NCBI RefSeq assembly: GCF_028735875.1
Contig: NZ_CP117834.1
Location: 434,001 to 498,000 of the forward strand
DNA length: 64,000 bases
Reading direction: 5' to 3'
From: Shouchella hunanensis
GTDB taxonomy: Bacteria > Bacillota > Bacilli > Bacillales > Bacillaceae_D
Made by a program: the position numbers and the translations under genes. Shown piece after piece: positions 3,395-38,544 of the stretch (positions are counted from its first letter, which is position 1; each line of letters starts with the position of its first letter). The notes under the pieces were generated by a model that saw only the letters and a list, made by a program, of their open reading frames with translations, did not search any database and was not told where the DNA came from.

Positions 3395-3428
3395 AAGGAG
3401 AAGGGTTGCTCAGACCCTTCTCCTTTTC
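3395..3428 (+). terminator. tlp terminator
   Basis: AAGGAGAAGGGT (3395-3406) pairs with ACCCTTCTCCTT (3414-3425) over a 7-nt loop, with a short T run. It may also act for the convergent gene ending at 3432. Confidence 0.8.
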
Positions 3429-14185: not shown

Positions 14186-14217
14186 GCAGATGAGGTGTTC
14201 TATTCAATTCGTACTCT

Positions 14218-14246
14218 ATCTTACCACACGATTCTTTAACAAACAA
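14218..14246 (-). promoter_or_regulatory. Sigma-A promoter for the lysine riboswitch leader
   Basis: Minus-strand TTGTTT (14246-14241) and TAAGAT (14223-14218) with a 17-nt spacer, about 30 nt before the riboswitch. Confidence 0.65.
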
Positions 14247-14267
14247 TGACAAATTACGACATTTTTA

Positions 14268-15014
14268 CTAATCCTGCTTTATTTCTTCTTCTCCAATAAC
14301 AGGATAACCAAAACCACCCTGACCGCCGTAAAATTGAGGCACTGGTCCAGCTACATAAGCAAAACCAGCCGGTAGTTCGACCGAAATCGTCTCTGATACC
14401 TCTGAAAACGGCAAGATGACATCCATATTAACATCAATGTTGACATAAAAAGATAAACGCGTGTTGTTTATACCAAGCGTCTCTGCCTCGTCCCGCATCT
14501 GTACTTTCGCATCGCCCATTAAAGCAAACCGGATTGGAATACCGGGTCCTACATCGGTTAAAAGCGCATTATTTAGCGCTCTACCTAAAGGAATAGTTGC
14601 AACGATCGGGTTATCATCGCCATAGCTATTCACTTCCCCACGCTGTACTTGATTAATGACCTCATGAACACGGGTTTGTACTCTTCCCATTAACTCATTA
14701 TACTTTTGAGTGTTGACATCAAGAAAAACGACAAGTCCATCATTATTCGTTTCTTTAATAAAAATCTCACTCATATCCATTTGGGATAGCTCTTCTGCCA
14801 TCGCTTGTTCAATCGTATACGTAGCGACTCGCTCCATTTCACGCTGGGCAATTTGTGAAATAATTGGTCTTAATTGAGAATCAACAAACCAAAGCCCTTG
14901 TATTGAAAGAATTGCAAATAAGACGAATGACAACAGGAGCACATAGCGAAAAGGTAACGGAGCTTGTGATTGCTTAGAGCCTTTAATTGGTTGAAATCGA
15001 TAACGTTTACGCAA
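14268..15014 (-). CDS. yunB: Sporulation protein YunB
   Basis: 248 residues, one transmembrane segment near residues 26-44 (Y-V-L-L-L-S-F-V-L-F-A-I-L) with a basic cytosolic N-terminus, then an extracytoplasmic domain. The family resembles YlmC/YjfA-free sporulation proteins required for full spore formation in B. subtilis; the molecular role is unclear. The first codon is TTG at 15014, preceded by a GGGGGTGGG run. It is the last gene of the yunC-thyA-dfrA-yunB set. Confidence 0.82.
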   Translation of the reverse strand: MRKRYRFQPIKGSKQSQAPLPFRYVLLLSFVLFAILSIQGLWFVDSQLRPIISQIAQREMERVATYTIEQAMAEELSQMDMSEIFIKETNNDGLVVFLDVNTQKYNELMGRVQTRVHEVINQVQRGEVNSYGDDNPIVATIPLGRALNNALLTDVGPGIPIRFALMGDAKVQMRDEAETLGINNTRLSFYVNIDVNMDVILPFSEVSETISVELPAGFAYVAGPVPQFYGGQGGFGYPVIGEEEIKQD

Positions 15015-15075
15015 AAATAGCCCACCCCCTCTTATAGATTTCTATGCAAGAGGGACTAGGCTTCGAACTAAAAGT

Positions 15076-15558
15076 TTATCTCTTTCTTACGTACGTACGG
15101 TATTCATGGGGGTAACGATTTTTTTCGTCCATTGTTCCAGCAATGGCTTCTACGAGCTCCCACTCATCCTCTTCCAATGCAGGAACGAACGTGTCTGCAT
15201 CAAATGTATCCTCAATAACGGTAACAATTTGTTTATCACAATGATTCCAAAACAATTTAAAGATTTCTGTACCACCGATGACGAAAATCTCTTGTTCTTT
15301 ACTGAGCGCTAATACGTCATCCACCGAATACACAACATCTGTATCTGGTGCAGCAAAGGAGTGATTTCTCGTCAAAACGATGTTGCGACGATTTGGCAAA
15401 GGTCCATTCATGGAATCAAATGTCTTTCTTCCCATCACAATCGTCTTACCCGTTGTCGTTTGTTTGAAATGTTTTAAATCGGCAGGAAGATGCCAAGGCA
15501 TGTCATTGTTCTTTCCAATGCCATGCGCTTTATCACGAGCATATACGAATGTAATCAT
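15076..15558 (-). CDS. dfrA: Dihydrofolate reductase
   Basis: 160 residues. The NADPH/folate-binding features are present: [16 protein letters not shown] near residues 13-28 with the catalytic acidic residue in [14 protein letters not shown] near 41-50, and the V-I-G-G-T-E-I-F motif near 93-100. It regenerates tetrahydrofolate from the dihydrofolate made by ThyA. Its start overlaps the thyA stop by 4 nt (ATGA), indicating translational coupling. Confidence 0.96.
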
Positions 15559-16349
15559 ACAGACACCTCTGCTTTTATATGCGGATGCGCTTCATACCCA
15601 ACAAGTTCGAAATCATCAAATGTAAACGAGAAGATATCGTTCACTTCTGGGTTCATTTTCATTGTTGGCAATGGATGTGGCTCTCTTGAAAGTTGCAATT
15701 TTGCTTGTTCAATATGATTGGAGTAAAGGTGTGCATCACCAAACGTATGAACAAATTCACCCGGCTCTAAATCACATACTTGCGCAATCATCATTGTTAA
15801 TAACGCGTAAGAGGCAATATTAAACGGCACCCCTAAAAAGACATCGGCGCTCCGTTGATAAAGCTGGCAGGAAAGCTTTCCATCTTGAACATAGAATTGA
15901 AAGAGACAGTGGCATGGCGCCAGTGCCATATCATCAATTTCTGCAACGTTCCATGCATTTACAACGAGGCGTCGCGAATCAGGGTTCGTTTTTATTTGCT
16001 CCACCACTTCTTTTATTTGATCAACTGTTCTTCCGTTTGCTCCTTCCCACGAACGCCACTGTTTTCCGTAAACAGGTCCTAGATCACCAGTTTCATCTGC
16101 CCATTCATTCCAAATGCGCACACCATTATCTTGTAAATACTTTATATTCGTATCACCTTGTAAAAACCACAGGAGCTCATGGATAATTGAGCGCAGATGC
16201 ACTTTTTTTGTTGTTACAACTGGAAAACCTTCTTGTAGATTAAATCTCATTTGATATCCAAACGTACTAATTGTTCCAGTGCCTGTCCGATCTGATTTTT
16301 GCGAGCCGTGTGTTAGCACATGCTCGCATAGCTGTAAATACTGCTTCAT
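15555..16349 (-). CDS. thyA: Thymidylate synthase ThyA
   Basis: 264 residues from ATG 16349, the usual ThyA length. The catalytic cysteine is in [11 protein letters not shown] near residue 146, followed by [16 protein letters not shown]. It methylates dUMP to dTMP using methylene-tetrahydrofolate. An in-frame ATG at 16361 abuts GAAGGG and could be used instead; 16349 gives the family N-terminus M-K-Q-Y. In B. subtilis yunB and yunC are adjacent, so thyA-dfrA is an insertion relative to that order. Confidence 0.95.
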
Positions 16350-16365
16350 TGTTTGCTTCATCCCT

Positions 16366-16677
16366 TCACTCTGCTTGTTTCATTTTTAAAAGCGCTTCTT
16401 TACCAATTGTCCCTTTTGTTATGCCTAATTCTTCGCATTTAAACGTGACAGATTCAAGTGGCGCATCTAACAACTGTTCAATCGTACGGACACCTACTGC
16501 TCTAGCAGCAAGAATCCCACGTTCTTTTAACTTTTCATTTAACAGTGCGACGTCTAATGCTCCGCACATAATATAGCCTGCATCACATGTTACTGCCATA
16601 AAGTTGGTCTTTGGCAACTTAACGGTAATCGCCAAGAACGTTTCTCCTTCAATGCTAATAGGATCAACATTAATCAT
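16366..16677 (-). CDS. yunC: YunC family (DUF1805) protein
   Basis: 103 residues matching the YunC family: [15 protein letters not shown] and the [16 protein letters not shown] segment are conserved. Structure-based function is unknown. AAGGAG lies about 12 nt upstream of ATG 16677. thyA begins 16 nt downstream. Confidence 0.88.
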
Positions 16678-16715
16678 GGAACAATCGCTCCTTTTTCAAT
16701 TCATTTCTTCACACA

Positions 16716-18071
16716 TTATGAAAAAGTAAGCTTGTTTGTTCCTGTCTGCAATAATTTTGCCAGAATATCACGTAAAAACTCTGGTAGTAAATAGTGCTTC
16801 ATTTCCGCATTGGCAATATGGGGAAACAAAAAACCAAACGTGTACATATCAAGTGTTGCCAACCGATAAAGCTTCGTTTCAGCAATGGTTTGTCCGTTTA
16901 CAAGGATCCCTGTCGGCGTAATGGTAATACCAGTAAACAGCATTAGACCTAACACTTTGCCACGAAATCCAAAGCCTTTTAGCTCTAGCTTTACAATATC
17001 ATCTGTCTGTGCCCGACGTATAGTCTCGATTAGCTGCTTCCCTGTTAACTCAACGATGCAAGGATTGATCGGGTGTGGACAAATACGATGAATATCACCA
17101 TATGTCACATCCCCCATTGGTAAACTCTCCATTAATACACCAGCATTCATCATTCCAATTTCTTCTTCACACCATTCTGTTAAGGCATCACATAAGGCTT
17201 GTGTTGCAACCGATGGCTCGAACCATTTTACTTCAAAAGGTTTAACAAGCGAAACGATTGGTTGTGATAGTGCCTCCACAGCCTCTTGATTTAATGATTC
17301 TAAAAGCTGTTTACTCCCTTTGTCTTCTTTACAACTTGTCGGGTCAATTAATGTTGGCTGAACGCTTATAACATCCTTGTTTTCAAATACTAACGTTAGC
17401 TCCCCTAAAAAAATCCCATGTTTCCCTGCTTGGGTTATCCATGTATCTTTCACTTTTAACCCATTTTGTAAACTATGGTGTGTGTGTGCACCAATGATCG
17501 CTGTAATCCCTTCGACTTCATTGGCAATTTGTTCGTCTTTAGGAAGCCCTAAATGAGACAGAAGAATTACTGCATCTACTTTATCTTTCAATTGATTTAC
17601 ATGTGCTTGAATTCCCTCAATGGAATAAGACACATCCCAACCAAGCTGTTCATAAAAATGCGTCATCGCGGATGTATAGCCAATATACGCTATTTGTAAC
17701 CCTGCAATTGTATCGATTTGGTGTGGAACTGCCCAGCTCGGACGCAAACCAGTTTTCCGGTCAAACAAGTTTGCAACAATAACGTTAAAGTCTGCTTCAC
17801 TGTACATATCATCTAACATTTTTTGCGAGAACGTAACCCCTTCATTATTACCAATGGTAGCAAAGTCTACATTCGCTTCATTTAGTAACTGAATGTTTCC
17901 AATACCTCCTGTTGCTTCTGTCATTGGGTTTGCTCGATCCGCATGGTCTCCTAAATCCACGTAACGGACGTTCTCGTTTTGGTTACGTTTTATATGCCCA
18001 ACGATATTTGCCCAATGTTGAAAACCACTGTGAATATCGTTTGTATGATAAATGGTTATAGTCGTTGTAAT
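16716..18071 (-). CDS. yunD: YunD metallophosphoesterase/5'-nucleotidase, apparent ATT start
   Basis: 451 residues if initiated at the ATT at 18071. The metallophosphoesterase domain begins with Y-H-T-N-D-I-H-S at residues 8-15 (metal ligands D and H), continues with D-L-G-D-H-A-D-R near 38, G-N-N-E-G near 60 and G-A-H-T-H near 200; a 5'-nucleotidase C-terminal domain follows. The nearest ATG/GTG/TTG in frame is GTG 17960, which would delete the first metal motif. AAGGAGG (18086-18080) is 8 nt from ATT 18071 and 5 nt from ATC 18074, and an in-frame stop lies further upstream, so a non-canonical start is the best reading. Members hydrolyse nucleotides or related phosphoesters; this one has no signal peptide. 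Confidence 0.8.
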   Translation of the reverse strand: MTTTITIYHTNDIHSGFQHWANIVGHIKRNQNENVRYVDLGDHADRANPMTEATGGIGNIQLLNEANVDFATIGNNEGVTFSQKMLDDMYSEADFNVIVANLFDRKTGLRPSWAVPHQIDTIAGLQIAYIGYTSAMTHFYEQLGWDVSYSIEGIQAHVNQLKDKVDAVILLSHLGLPKDEQIANEVEGITAIIGAHTHHSLQNGLKVKDTWITQAGKHGIFLGELTLVFENKDVISVQPTLIDPTSCKEDKGSKQLLESLNQEAVEALSQPIVSLVKPFEVKWFEPSVATQALCDALTEWCEEEIGMMNAGVLMESLPMGDVTYGDIHRICPHPINPCIVELTGKQLIETIRRAQTDDIVKLELKGFGFRGKVLGLMLFTGITITPTGILVNGQTIAETKLYRLATLDMYTFGFLFPHIANAEMKHYLLPEFLRDILAKLLQTGTNKLTFS

Positions 18072-18099
18072 GATGGTTTCCTCCTTGAAGCAAGCTGGT

Positions 18100-18918
18100 T
18101 TACATGATGCCTTGAATGATTAGTTGAATGGCAAGAGCAATAAAGACAATTCTCATTACAATGATAAGTATGTTTGATTGTAAACGGCGGTTAAGCCAAG
18201 CACCACATTTTGCCCCGAAATAGGCGCCTGGAATAAGGGCCAGAACAAGTAACCATTCAACATGCCCCCCCAAAGCATAAGCACCCGTTCCAACAATCGC
18301 TGAGAATAAGACAAGTAACATAGCAGTGGCAGTAGCAATCTTTATTGGAAAACCGAATAAAAGCATCATAACAGGAACCATGATCGCCCCACCACCAACA
18401 CCAAATAAACTCGATAAGAAACCGACAACAACGCTAATGATAATGGCAGTTGGGTAAGAAAATCCATAAGCATACGGCTTTCCTGTGTCATCAATACCTG
18501 TACGCCAGTAAGCTTTCTCTACCTCTTTTTCTTTATGCTGCTGAGGTCGAAAAAACAAGCTTAACGCAATAAGCAGCATAAAAAAGCCGAAATAAATAAG
18601 GAATGCATCAGTGGGTAGGAGTCGACTTACAAAAGTCCCTAGTATCGCTCCAGGCGCTATACCAATGAGAAAGATAAACCCACTTTTCACATCCATTGTT
18701 CGCTGTTTCCCATAAGCGATTACGGAAGAAATGCCAGTAACAATCATTGTCGCGAGAGACGTTCCCGCCGCCGCTTGCGACGTTAGGCTAGGTACATCAG
18801 CTAACACCATTGGCAATAGTAATAAAGCGGGAACGACAATAACGCCACCACCAAGGCCGAGCAGACTTCCAAAAGCGCCTGCTATAAAACCTACAATAAG
18901 AAAAAGGATAATAAACAC
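18100..18918 (-). CDS. yunE: TSUP family (TauE/SafE) anion exporter YunE
   Basis: 272-residue membrane protein with about 8 hydrophobic segments and the duplicated TSUP motif: G-S-L-L-G-L-G-G-G-V-I-V-V-P-A-L near the N-terminus and S-S-L-F-G-V-G-G-G-A-I-M-V-P near residue 170. The family exports sulfite, sulfoacetate or other organosulfonates; the substrate is unknown. GTG 18918 has GGAG 9 nt upstream. The stop codon lies 28 nt before the inferred ATT start of yunD. Confidence 0.88.
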   Translation of the reverse strand: MFIILFLIVGFIAGAFGSLLGLGGGVIVVPALLLLPMVLADVPSLTSQAAAGTSLATMIVTGISSVIAYGKQRTMDVKSGFIFLIGIAPGAILGTFVSRLLPTDAFLIYFGFFMLLIALSLFFRPQQHKEKEVEKAYWRTGIDDTGKPYAYGFSYPTAIIISVVVGFLSSLFGVGGGAIMVPVMMLLFGFPIKIATATAMLLVLFSAIVGTGAYALGGHVEWLLVLALIPGAYFGAKCGAWLNRRLQSNILIIVMRIVFIALAIQLIIQGIM

Positions 18919-18936
18919 AAATCATTCTCCTAGCTT

Positions 18937-19782
18937 TTAAAATAAATCAAGCTGTCGCGATGCTAAGTCTTTGTATGTGATATTCATATTTCCGATTAGC
19001 GACCGGGCGTTGCTAGCCGCATGACCACCAGAATTGTTATTGAATACAACAAACACATCATCCACTTTCTGCGACAAGCGTTGCAAGTTTGCTTCCCATT
19101 CCTTTAATTCTTGCTGATTGTAATCGTAGAGATAACGAACATCACGCCAGTTCTCACCGTTTCGAGGACCATTCCAACCGTGACGATTGCGCCCGTGAAA
19201 TCGCACAAGCGTTTTTTCTTTTGTAGTCGGTTCTAAAATGGTAGGGACGGAGCCCGGACCAGCTTGAGGTTCATCACAAATACTATGTATCCAATCATCT
19301 TCTCGCATATACTGTAACGTCTTCTCTTTATACGGAGCATCAAACCATGAATGATGACGAAACTCAAGGGCTGTCGGAAAATCTCTAAGCTTTTCACGAA
19401 CAAATCGTAACGCATGGACATGTTTTGTCGTAACATCAAACCACGGTGGAAATTGACATAAAACCATTGCTAATTTATTCGCCTGTATTAATGGCTCTAA
19501 CGAATCTTTAAACGCTTCATACATTTGATCTCTAGATGAAAAAGGCGATTCACCACGTTGGTGCCCCGTAATGTCTTGATAAGCTTTCACAATAAATTTA
19601 AACGAATTGGGTGTTTCCCGAATCCATTTCTCCATTGATGCTCTCGATTGCACAGCATAAAAGCTAGAATCCAATTCAACAATAGGAAAATAACCAGCAT
19701 AAGTCTCTAGTTTCTGATGAGGTTTAACCCCTTCATATAATGAATAATGGTCGCCCCACCCGGTTAAACCAATGTATATCAC
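18937..19782 (-). CDS. yunF: DUF72 family protein YunF
   Basis: 281 residues of the DUF72 family, a TIM-barrel fold. Conserved elements are G-L-T-G-W at residues 5-9, V-E-L-D-S-S-F-Y near 36, F-K-F-I-V-K near 60, the L-E-F-R-H-H-S-W segment near 138 and V-F-N-N-N-S-G-G-H near 248. Function uncharacterised. GTG start at 19782 with GGAGG 8 nt upstream. It heads the yunF-yunE-yunD run. Confidence 0.88.
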   Translation of the reverse strand: MIYIGLTGWGDHYSLYEGVKPHQKLETYAGYFPIVELDSSFYAVQSRASMEKWIRETPNSFKFIVKAYQDITGHQRGESPFSSRDQMYEAFKDSLEPLIQANKLAMVLCQFPPWFDVTTKHVHALRFVREKLRDFPTALEFRHHSWFDAPYKEKTLQYMREDDWIHSICDEPQAGPGSVPTILEPTTKEKTLVRFHGRNRHGWNGPRNGENWRDVRYLYDYNQQELKEWEANLQRLSQKVDDVFVVFNNNSGGHAASNARSLIGNMNITYKDLASRQLDLF

Positions 19783-19821
19783 ATTCTGTTCCTCCAGAGA
19801 TGTTTTTTTCTATTTTAACGT

Positions 19822-19847
19822 AAAAAAGAGAGAAATGCGATTCTCTC
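19822..19847 (-). terminator. Hairpin plus T tract upstream of yunF
   Basis: Minus strand GAGAGAA (19847-19841), loop, TTCTCTC (19834-19828), then six T (19827-19822). It is about 70 nt downstream of the sufB terminator and 40 nt before yunF. It is either a backup terminator for suf or an attenuator in the yunF leader. Confidence 0.5.
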
Positions 19848-19914
19848 GTCTAGCTAAAACTAGAACCCTTCTAACTAGCTATTGGCAAAAGCTGATCAAA
19901 CATCTTTTCCCATA

Positions 19915-19947
19915 AAAAAGAGAAGAACGGCATTCGCTCTTCTCTTT
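19915..19947 (-). terminator. suf operon terminator
   Basis: Stem AAAGAGAAGA (19917-19926) with TCTTCTCTTT (19938-19947); on the minus strand it ends in a T tract, 19 nt after the sufB stop. Confidence 0.8.
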
Positions 19948-19965
19948 CTATCAAAAGGTTTTAGA

Positions 19966-21363
19966 TTACCCAATTGAACCTTCCATCTCAAACTTGATTA
20001 AACGATTCATTTCAACGGCATATTCCATTGGAAGTTCTTTCGTAAATGGCTCAATGAAGCCCATAACGATCATTTCTGTTGCTTCTTCTTCACCAAGACC
20101 ACGGCTCATAAGATAGAACAATTGATCCTCAGATACTTTTGATACCGTTGCTTCATGCTCAAGTGTAATGTTGTTATTGAGAATCTCGTTATAAGGAATC
20201 GTATCAGACGTAGACTCATTATCCATGATGAGCGTATCACACTCAATCTTAGATTTTGACCCATCTGATTTACGTCCGAAGTGGCAAATTCCACGGTATG
20301 TTACTTTACCACCTTGTTTTGAAATGGATTTCGATACAATGGTAGACGAACAGTTTGGTGCAAGATGCGTTACTTTTGCACCAGCATCTTGATGTTGGCC
20401 TTTTCCTGCAATCGCAATGGAAAGAACTGTACCTTTCGCGCCTTCTCCACGCATAATAACGGCTGGGTATTTCATTGTTAATTTAGAACCGATGTTTCCA
20501 TCTACCCATTCCATAGTTGCGCCTTTGTCAGCAACCGCACGCTTTGTTACAAGATTAAATACGTTTGGCGCCCAGTTTTGAATCGTTGTATAACGGCAAT
20601 ATGCGTTATCCTTTACGATGATTTCAACAACTGCACTGTGAAGTGAGTTTGTTGTATAAACTGGGGCTGTACAACCCTCAACGTAATGTACGGAACTGTC
20701 TTCATCCGCAATAATTAATGTTCGCTCAAACTGCCCCATATTCTCTGAGTTAATTCGGAAATATGCTTGAAGTGGCGTTTCCACTTTTACGCCTTTAGGC
20801 ACATAGATAAATGAGCCACCAGACCATACAGCTGAATTTAATGCAGAGAACTTATTGTCAGCTGCAGGAATGACAGAAGCAAAATGTTCTCTAAAGATGT
20901 CTTCGTTTTCTTTTAAAGCAGAATCTGTATCTTTAAAGACAACACCAAGCTTTTCTAGATCTTCCTGCATGTTGTGATAAACGACTTCGGATTCATACTG
21001 AGCCGACACACCTGCAAGATACTTTTGCTCTGCTTCAGGAATCCCAAGCTTATCAAACGTATTTTTAATTTCTTCCGGAACTTCATCCCAAGAACGCTCT
21101 GTTTTATCTGAGGCTTTAACGTAATACGTAATGTCATCAAAGTTTAACTCTGAAAGGTCGCCACCCCACTGAGGCATTGGCATTTTATAAAATTGTTCAA
21201 GTGATTTTAAACGGAAGTCTAACATCCACTTAGGTTCGCTCTTCATACGCGAGATTTCTTCAACGATCTCTTTTGTTAATCCACGTCCAGAACGGAAAAT
21301 GGATACGTCACGATCCGAAAACCCGTATTTGTATTCACCGATATCAGGCATTTTTTTTGCCAT
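19966..21363 (-). CDS. sufB: Fe-S cluster assembly protein SufB
   Basis: 465-residue subunit of the SufBCD scaffold. The parallel beta-helix core of SufB/SufD is evident, with the [10 protein letters not shown] segment near residue 228 and the C-terminal helical region [12 protein letters not shown] that contacts SufC. SufB receives sulfur from SufS/SufU and assembles a nascent cluster with SufC and SufD. It is the last gene of sufCDSUB; ATG 21363 has AGGAGGG 7 nt upstream. Confidence 0.97.
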
Positions 21364-21382
21364 TCGGAATCCCTCCTAATAG

Positions 21383-24343
<2,961 letters not shown>

Positions 24344-36174: not shown

Positions 36175-38544
36175 CTAATTACGTAATGGCTTTCCTTTAG
36201 CAAGCATATACTGCATACGTTGCTGCGATTTCGGCTCTCCGATCAAGCTAAGAAAAGCTTCTCGTTCTAAATCAAGTAAATACTGTTCATCCACAAGTGT
36301 TCCTTCTTTTAAACGACCACCAGAAAGAACGAAAGCAAGCTTCTTCGCAATCTTTAAATCATGTTCCGATGCATAGCCGCCCCACTTCATCATTTCTGCT
36401 CCTAGCATTAACGTTGCGTAACCAGCCTCTCCTGTAACAGGAATTTTCTTTTTCACTGGTGCTTTATAGCCACTGTTGTAAAGAGAAATCACTTTTTGCT
36501 TCGCTTCTTCATTTACAAAAAGATCATTCATCACAATGCCGTCCCGATAATTCATGAACCCATTTTCCCTTGCTTCGGCAGCAGATGTGGATACTTTTGC
36601 TGTTGCAATCGTTTCAAAGGTTTCGCGTACAGCTTTTTGTAGTTGAGCAGGCGTTTCCCCAAAGCGCTCTATGTTTCTCAGATACAACTCTTTGTTACCA
36701 CCGCCTCCTGGGATAAGACCAACGCCAACTTCTACAAGACCCATATAGGTTTCATGGCTTGCTTGTATACTTGCAGCTGGTAAGCTAATTTCAGCGCCTC
36801 CTCCAAGAGTCATTTGAAATGGTGCTGTCACAACAGGTACATTGGCATAACGAATGTTCGCTGTTGCTTGCTGGAATTGTTTCACGACTAAATCCAGTTC
36901 AAAGAAGTTATCATCTTGTGCTTCCATAAGCATCATCATTAAATTGGCGCCAACGCAAAAGTTCTTGCTTTCATTTCCAATAACAAGGCCTTTAAAATTC
37001 TTTTCCACTTCTACAATCGATTTATTAATCATTTGAATGACATCAAGACCAATGGAATTATTAGGAGAAGTGAATTTCAATAAGGCTACATCGTCTCCAA
37101 CATCAATTAAAGAAGCGCCTGTATTTTTTAAAACTGTATTCGTTTTCACTAAATGATGAAGCGACAAATATTTTTCGTGCTGACGGATTGGTGTGTGTTG
37201 CCCTTCATGAAGAAATTGACCTTCTTCATAAAAGCCTTCTTTGCCATTGTTATAAAGGTCTTCAACCCAACTCGGAATCGAGCGGTTTTCCTCCTTCATT
37301 CTTTCAACGGTTTGTCTAAAACCAAGGGCATCCCATAGTTCATATGGCCCCATACTCCAGCCAAAGCCCCAGCGCATGGCTTCATCAACGGCTAGAACGT
37401 CATTCGCAATCTCATACGTTTTTTCAGCTGTGTAAAGTAATACAGGACTAATAATATTCCAAAGCAATTCACCTGCTCTGTCATTAGCAAAAACAACGGC
37501 TTGGATTTTTTGATTCTTGGATGTTAGCGTTTTCGTTTTCTCAATTGAAGGTGCTTTTAGTTTCTTTCGTTCTTGATACTCCATTGTTTCAGGGTTTAGC
37601 TCATAAATCACACCGTCTTTTTTTTGAAAGAACCCTTGCCCTGCCTTTGCACCAATCCAACCTTTATCCGCCATTTCTCGCATAAAACCAGGAGGATCAA
37701 ACATCCTTTGCTCATCCCCTGTTGCAACATCGTGGACATTTTTCGCTACATGTAAAAATGTATCTAGACCAACTACATCTAACGTCCGGAACGTCGCACT
37801 TTTAGGACGACCTATTAGCGTACCCGTAACAGAATCTACCTCACCGACTGAGTAACCACCACGAAGCATTTCATGAACCGTTACAAGTAAACCGTACGTA
37901 CCGATACGGTTTGCAATAAAATTCGGTGTATCTTTAGCCTCAACTACACCTTTCCCTAAAGACTGTTCAGCGAAGGAACGCACAAACTCTATTACTTCCT
38001 GTTTTGTTTCCTCTAGCGGGATCACTTCAAGAAGTTTTAAGTAACGTGGAGGGTTAAAGAAGTGTGTCCCAAGAAAATGTGCTTTGAAGTCCTCACTACG
38101 TTCCTCCGCCATTGCTTTAATTGAAATCCCAGATGTATTTGAAGACACAATAGTACCTTCTTTTCTAACACGATCAATTTTCGCAAATAATTCTTTTTTC
38201 GCTTCTAGATTTTCAACGATGACTTCAATAATCCAATCGACATCCTTCAAGCGATGCAAATCATCTTCCACATTGCCAGTTTCAATTAAATTAACATTCT
38301 TTTTTGAAGCAAGTGGTGCTGGCTTTTGTTTTAACAGCTTTTTAACTGCAGTATCGGCTAAATGATTACGGGCGCGTTTTCTCTCAGCGGTTGCAACACT
38401 CGCTGATGCCCCTCCTGCTTCTTTTTCTTTTGGAACAATATCAAGAAGTAAAACAGGAATTCCTGCATTTGTTAAATGAGCGGCGATACTTGCCCCCATA
38501 ACACCTGATCCAATGACAGCTGTTTTTTTTATGTGACGTGACAT
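36175..38544 (-). CDS. fadN: FadN 3-hydroxyacyl-CoA dehydrogenase / enoyl-CoA hydratase
   Basis: 789 residues from ATG 38544, equal to B. subtilis FadN. N-terminal NAD-binding A-V-I-G-S-G-V-M-G-A-S-I near residues 8-19, dehydrogenase motif H-F-F-N-P-P-R near 140, and a C-terminal crotonase domain with N-F-C-V-G-A-N near 530 and L-G-G-G-A-E-I-S near 590. It performs hydration and 3-hydroxyacyl oxidation in beta-oxidation. ATG 38556 directly follows GGAGG and is an alternative start. It heads fadNAE. Confidence 0.95.
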   Translation of the reverse strand: MSRHIKKTAVIGSGVMGASIAAHLTNAGIPVLLLDIVPKEKEAGGASASVATAERKRARNHLADTAVKKLLKQKPAPLASKKNVNLIETGNVEDDLHRLKDVDWIIEVIVENLEAKKELFAKIDRVRKEGTIVSSNTSGISIKAMAEERSEDFKAHFLGTHFFNPPRYLKLLEVIPLEETKQEVIEFVRSFAEQSLGKGVVEAKDTPNFIANRIGTYGLLVTVHEMLRGGYSVGEVDSVTGTLIGRPKSATFRTLDVVGLDTFLHVAKNVHDVATGDEQRMFDPPGFMREMADKGWIGAKAGQGFFQKKDGVIYELNPETMEYQERKKLKAPSIEKTKTLTSKNQKIQAVVFANDRAGELLWNIISPVLLYTAEKTYEIANDVLAVDEAMRWGFGWSMGPYELWDALGFRQTVERMKEENRSIPSWVEDLYNNGKEGFYEEGQFLHEGQHTPIRQHEKYLSLHHLVKTNTVLKNTGASLIDVGDDVALLKFTSPNNSIGLDVIQMINKSIVEVEKNFKGLVIGNESKNFCVGANLMMMLMEAQDDNFFELDLVVKQFQQATANIRYANVPVVTAPFQMTLGGGAEISLPAASIQASHETYMGLVEVGVGLIPGGGGNKELYLRNIERFGETPAQLQKAVRETFETIATAKVSTSAAEARENGFMNYRDGIVMNDLFVNEEAKQKVISLYNSGYKAPVKKKIPVTGEAGYATLMLGAEMMKWGGYASEHDLKIAKKLAFVLSGGRLKEGTLVDEQYLLDLEREAFLSLIGEPKSQQRMQYMLAKGKPLRN

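Follow-up and report, generated by a model that had tools for sequence, protein, structure and literature searches.

Results

The yunD locus

The window, a stretch of 64,000 nucleotides from a 4.06-Mb single-contig genome (G000), carries a yunD-like gene on its minus strand at 16716..18071. Read from an ATT codon at 18069..18071, the coding sequence comprises 451 residues, and its stop codon ends at 16716. A Shine-Dalgarno sequence, AAGGAGG, lies at 18080..18086 with a spacer of 8 nt to the ATT, and a TAA in the yunD frame lies further 5' at 18120..18122; both were read directly from the sequence and agree with the initial annotation. The same-strand neighbours are sufB, a DUF72 gene, a TauE/SafE-family gene, yunD, a DUF1805 gene, thymidylate synthase, and dihydrofolate reductase. 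According to the list of open reading frames and a domain search, the TauE/SafE-family gene upstream (18100..18918, minus strand), which we take to be yunE-like, ends 28 nt before the yunD ATT, and the DUF1805 gene downstream (16366..16677, minus strand) is presumably yunC-like. Scanning 14200-22000 for promoters gave 12 promoter-like sites (19.7 in shuffled sequences); the minus strand had none from 18071 to 19000. A frameshift from yunE into yunD was considered and rejected: the two frames differ, the in-frame TAA at 18122 comes before the yunE stop, and the ATT has its own Shine-Dalgarno sequence.

The ATT product contains two Pfam domains in one chain, PF00149 (Metallophos, 38.4 bits against a cut-off of 21.5) and PF02872 (5_nucleotid_C, 41.6 bits against 23.6). 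Among solved structures, the closest by sequence is 3ivd, named Nucleotidase (E 1.1e-23), and the NCBIfam search matched 10 models, all below their own cut-offs. An HTND-x-H motif, found in this or a close variant form in most homologues read, occurs near the N-terminus as YHTNDIH (18030..18050, minus strand); we take it to be the metal-binding motif of calcineurin-like phosphoesterases. The domains and the motif suggest that the product is a YunD or 5'-nucleotidase-like metallophosphoesterase, that is, a putative nucleotidase. The name yunD, given in the initial annotation, presumably fits YunD of B. subtilis. In PMC10454023, the latter (O32133) is an uncharacterised metallophosphoesterase; it is placed in the same family as the window gene by name and domain content.

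The start codon

On the minus strand, no ATG, GTG or TTG was found in frame from the TAA (18122-18120) to the GTG at 17960 named in the initial annotation. The ATT (18071-18069) and the YHTNDIH motif (18050-18030) are separated by 18 nt, and the motif is present only if translation starts before GTG 17960. The PF00149 match begins at residue 6 of the ATT product, likewise before this GTG. That GTG (17958..17960, minus strand; codon 38 from the ATT) is the first in-frame codon of canonical type, and a mechanical lister of open reading frames limited to ATG, GTG and TTG opens yunD there, which bears out the warning that gene callers would truncate the protein. GTG also occurs at the equivalent position in one congener, G005. 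Translation from GTG 17960 would yield a shorter protein of 414 residues lacking YHTNDIH, a motif that most homologues read retain in similar form. In S. oshimensis (G003), however, this codon is GTT, and the first canonical codon past the ATT is an ATG at codon 50. The predicted Shine-Dalgarno duplex with the 16S tail is also weak at GTG 17960 (-3.0 kcal/mol) compared with that at ATT 18071 (-11.2 kcal/mol); the pattern of the tail used was found 7 times in the genome. Finally, the codons between ATT and GTG 17960 are under purifying selection, although it is looser than in the whole gene: against S. oshimensis, dN is 0.098 and dS 0.635 for codons 2-37, compared with 0.036 and 0.525 for all of yunD, so that dN/dS is about 0.15 in the N-terminal segment (36 codons only) and about 0.07 overall. 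Against G005, dS is saturated (3.6). We thus consider a start at GTG 17960 highly improbable.

Three other non-canonical codons, ATC 18074, ATA 18059 and ATT 18053, are all in frame, and ATC 18074, which the initial annotation had offered as an alternative start, would be served by the same Shine-Dalgarno sequence with a 5-nt spacer. This ATC is not conserved: G005 has GTC at its place, while G001, G004, G008, G010 and G011 have either TTT or CTG; the GTG starts of these last five genomes align instead with ATT 18071. ATA 18059 is replaced by GTA in G005, and neither it nor ATT 18053 has a Shine-Dalgarno sequence (duplex energies of +2.4 and 0.1 kcal/mol, respectively). A start at one of these codons is very unlikely.

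The same ATT is found in S. oshimensis, S. miscanthi AK13 and G005, which argues for a genuine ATT and against a sequencing slip. The window, S. oshimensis and S. miscanthi AK13 have the same sequence all the way from the in-frame stop codon up to this ATT, and the yunD of S. miscanthi AK13 as a whole is practically identical to the window copy. The lack of any canonical start 5' of the motif could also mark a decaying gene that has lost its start and is not properly translated. Yet the whole-gene dN/dS of yunD against S. oshimensis is low, no internal stop was found in the yunD match of the four genomes with ATT, and the Shine-Dalgarno sequence is retained in the ATT relatives (in G005, AAGGAGG lies 7 nt 5' of the ATT). 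Decay is therefore scarcely credible. Given that the window species has no canonical alternative, that relatives share the ATT, and that GTG 17960 has a weak Shine-Dalgarno sequence and is GTT in S. oshimensis, ATT 18071 is very probably the start codon of yunD.

A role of RNA structure was considered and rejected: in the predicted RNA fold at the yunD start (window z-score 0.17), the start codon is unpaired; the initiation region of G005 is partly paired in its predicted fold. The G005 frame is also open upstream, with TTG at 50 and 58 codons and ATG at 69 codons 5' of the motif histidine, so that a longer YunD product would be formally possible in that genome.

yunD starts in relatives

The yunD search covered 60 genomes, 59 of which gave a match, and the start was read in 50 (30 from matched loci and 20 from separately fetched stretches). 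Starts were left unread in G036, G042, G044, G045, G047, G049, G052, G053, G058 and, for want of a match, G050. Three additional records (L033, L034, L079), which duplicate or nearly duplicate genomes already included, were kept out of the tally. At two loci (L017, L030), TTG and ATG were both present and TTG was scored; at three others (L014, L087, L096), the start was taken by eye directly from the sequence. By eye, the 50 starts comprised 26 ATG, 11 TTG, 10 GTG and 3 ATT (G000, G003, G005). Non-ATG codons thus account for 24 of 50, nearly half, and the yunD family may tolerate or prefer weak initiation.

Within the genus, 13 genomes were tallied, including G060, which is marked as the same species as G000. 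Four start with ATT (G000, G060, G003, G005), seven with GTG and two with ATG; the alignment proposed in the initial annotation thus contradicts a sequencing error. A tree of 20 sequences groups the four ATT rows in a single clade (100/100), and the neighbouring row, at a fork supported by 85/91, has GTG. Most simply, the ATT would have arisen once, from a canonical start, in the ancestor that S. miscanthi, S. oshimensis and G005 share. YunD of S. oshimensis is 93% identical to the window protein and that of G005 only 78%, so the ATT has persisted through considerable divergence.

infC and the initiation machinery

The gene infC has a known unusual ATT start and is autoregulated. In all 14 genomes searched, its start reads GGAGGTGGCTC or GGAGGTGGCCC, then ATT ATT, after GGAGG. 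An in-frame ATG follows five codons past the ATT in 13 of the 14 genomes and six past it in G002, and the assignment of the infC start to ATT therefore follows the literature. An altered initiation machinery was considered as the cause of the ATT and rejected. By eye, IF3 of the ATT genomes showed nothing unusual; the 14 IF3 sequences are alike save for scattered changes, one of them confined to G000, and a C-terminus that diverges in G006. All 13 genus genomes carry the initiator-tRNA core with its CAT anticodon.

Survey for further ATT starts

The genome was surveyed for ATT after AAGGAGG or AGGAGG. The bare patterns were not enriched over their backwards controls: AAGGAGG-N5-10-ATT occurs at 96 sites (control 125) and AGGAGG-N6-8-ATT at 116 (control 140). 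A filter was then applied that demanded an in-frame stop upstream and excluded sites with a competing canonical start 4-13 nt past the Shine-Dalgarno sequence. The AAGGAGG set comprises 97 combinations of site and spacing, 33 of which open at least 60 codons, and only three sites pass: yunD, a carbonic anhydrase gene and a 73-codon frame. Since so few sites pass and the yunD frame is by far the longest, the yunD ATT site exceeds chance. The AGGAGG pattern added an aldose-epimerase-like gene among the 100 of 116 sites listed; the other 16 are covered where they are shared with the AAGGAGG set. In a codon control, 5 of 47 ATT cases (4 sites) passed the filter, compared with 7 of 316 cases for other codons (4 sites), a rough guide only, because the stretches had been picked for ATT and different spacings at a given site depend on each other. 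Of the other codons in these stretches, ATC passed in 0 of 5 cases, ATA in 0 of 8 and CTG in 0 of 8. Across the window, non-canonical starts with a strong Shine-Dalgarno sequence are limited to the ATC and ATT of yunD, an ATA at 37080 (plus strand, 79-codon frame) and a CTG at 3413 (minus strand, 88-codon frame); neither of the latter two frames looks gene-like by eye.

Besides yunD, the likely ATT starts in this genome are those of infC, a small protein gene beside sda, the carbonic anhydrase gene and the aldose-epimerase-like gene. The small gene (L169, 1504-1719; G000:C1:3121697 on; homologues L170-L180 and L262-L291) is the 73-codon frame of the survey and encodes a putative membrane protein of 65-72 residues with one hydrophobic stretch, for which no Pfam or NCBIfam match was found at E up to 1. 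It adjoins an sda-like motif at each of the 12 loci checked, and in G000 the neighbour is Sda by PF08970. Within the genus it begins with ATT in 12 of 13 genomes, the exception being G002 with ATG. The family search matched 39 of 41 genomes, 26 of them outside the genus; there, 17 starts were read: 16 are ATG at the homologous position, while G017 has TTG with an ATG two codons before it. In five congeners (G011, G004, G010, G008, G007; L175-L179), an out-of-frame ATG lies 7 nt 5' of the ATT, and the two codons would compete there for one ribosome-binding site.

The carbonic anhydrase gene (PF00194; L147, G000:C1:3486415, minus strand; L158-L160) matches in 9 of 13 genus genomes. It has ATT in G000, G060 and G003, directly followed by a signal-peptide-like N-terminus, and ATG in G004, G008, G010 and G011. 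It occurs only in pieces in G009 (L166) and G006 (L165, L167, L168), where it is broken or truncated or the assembly is at fault. The 12 genus matches of the epimerase-like gene (PF01263; L234/L248, G000:C1:2690361) start with ATT in G000 and G060, ATC in G003, ATG in five genomes and GTG in four. G003 and G005 also have an ATG in the same frame, 8 codons upstream of this position, which makes the ATC start of G003 less sure.

Discussion

In this study, yunD was found to have a probable AUU start. Translation would begin at AUU 18071, with the ribosome recruited by the strong, well-spaced Shine-Dalgarno sequence. The initiator tRNA would read AUU as fMet with a third-position mismatch, for which the strong Shine-Dalgarno sequence would compensate. 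With AUU, translation of yunD probably falls to a fraction of the ATG level, and YunD protein is thus probably kept scarce. We infer the use of AUU in the cell from the sequence, and weak initiation at yunD from published AUU starts. One close parallel is infC, with the same codon in the same genome. However, autoregulation has been described for infC, which has an ATG a few codons on, whereas we know of no autoregulatory loop for yunD.

In S. aureus, cvfC1 starts with AUU and ccpN with AUA; in poor medium, these starts, with extended Shine-Dalgarno sequences, reach about 10% of AUG (PMC13009471). In rich medium, ccpN rises to 30%, whereas the AUU site of cvfC1 was unaffected by the medium (same source), so that a weak start need not be regulated. 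Like yunD, both are Firmicute genes with an AUH start, a strong extended Shine-Dalgarno sequence, and a start conserved among relatives. Their starts were mapped by Ribo-Ret and measured with reporters, whereas that of yunD is predicted from sequence; in addition, cvfC1 encodes a protein of 61 residues and ccpN a regulator, while yunD encodes an enzyme-family protein of 451 residues whose ATT was seen in a single clade. In E. coli, pcnB is likewise an enzyme gene with an AUU start, and is limited by it (cited in PMC9410913 and PMC13009471); it differs from yunD in organism and enzyme, and its case was shown by experiment. AUU is also cited as one of the seven codons that initiate most strongly in E. 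coli (PMC12350097). The literature match on Shouchella start codons concerns MraW and cmpA, another gene (PMC13317604); it states that AUU initiation in E. coli goes up when MraW is lost. The statement of the initial annotation that ATT starts are essentially confined to infC is therefore out of date: AUU starts outside infC have already been published (pcnB, cvfC1), and yunD would add a new gene to this set.

The purpose of the ATT start may be regulation by the level of IF3 instead of a constant low setting. Throttling of this kind is possible by analogy with infC autoregulation and Streptomyces sigR, whose GTC start is repressed by IF3 (PMC5472188). The sigR gene shares with yunD a non-canonical start, an extensive ribosome-binding site, a miss in annotation, and restriction to a lineage; it differs in its codon and in that the IF3 effect was demonstrated for sigR (PMC5472188). 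The ATT of infC in the same genome and the non-ATG starts in 24 of 50 yunD genes, which may mean that weak starts are tolerated or preferred, also speak for such regulation. However, cvfC1 AUU did not respond to medium (PMC13009471), and the remaining 21 non-ATG yunD genes begin with GTG or TTG, codons that IF3 accepts according to PMC5472188. As a refinement of the AUU start, IF3-level regulation is a tentative reading that we consider rather unlikely.

The genus-wide ATT set is more interesting than yunD alone. Together, infC, the sda-side gene, yunD (in one clade), the carbonic anhydrase gene and the epimerase-like gene could form an AUU regulon that co-varies with initiation stringency, set by the IF3 level or by 16S C1402 methylation. 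We regard this as improbable; if true, Shouchella would have a regulon defined by its start codon. With or without it, yunD offers a clear, tree-placed case in which a gene of an ordinary enzyme family traded a canonical start for ATT and retained it. As yunD shows, gene callers limited to canonical starts can lose a catalytic N-terminus, and the small sda-side protein would be hard for them to see. The set of yunD, infC and the other likely ATT genes may thus provide a natural test of whether a weak start is a constant setting or responds to IF3.
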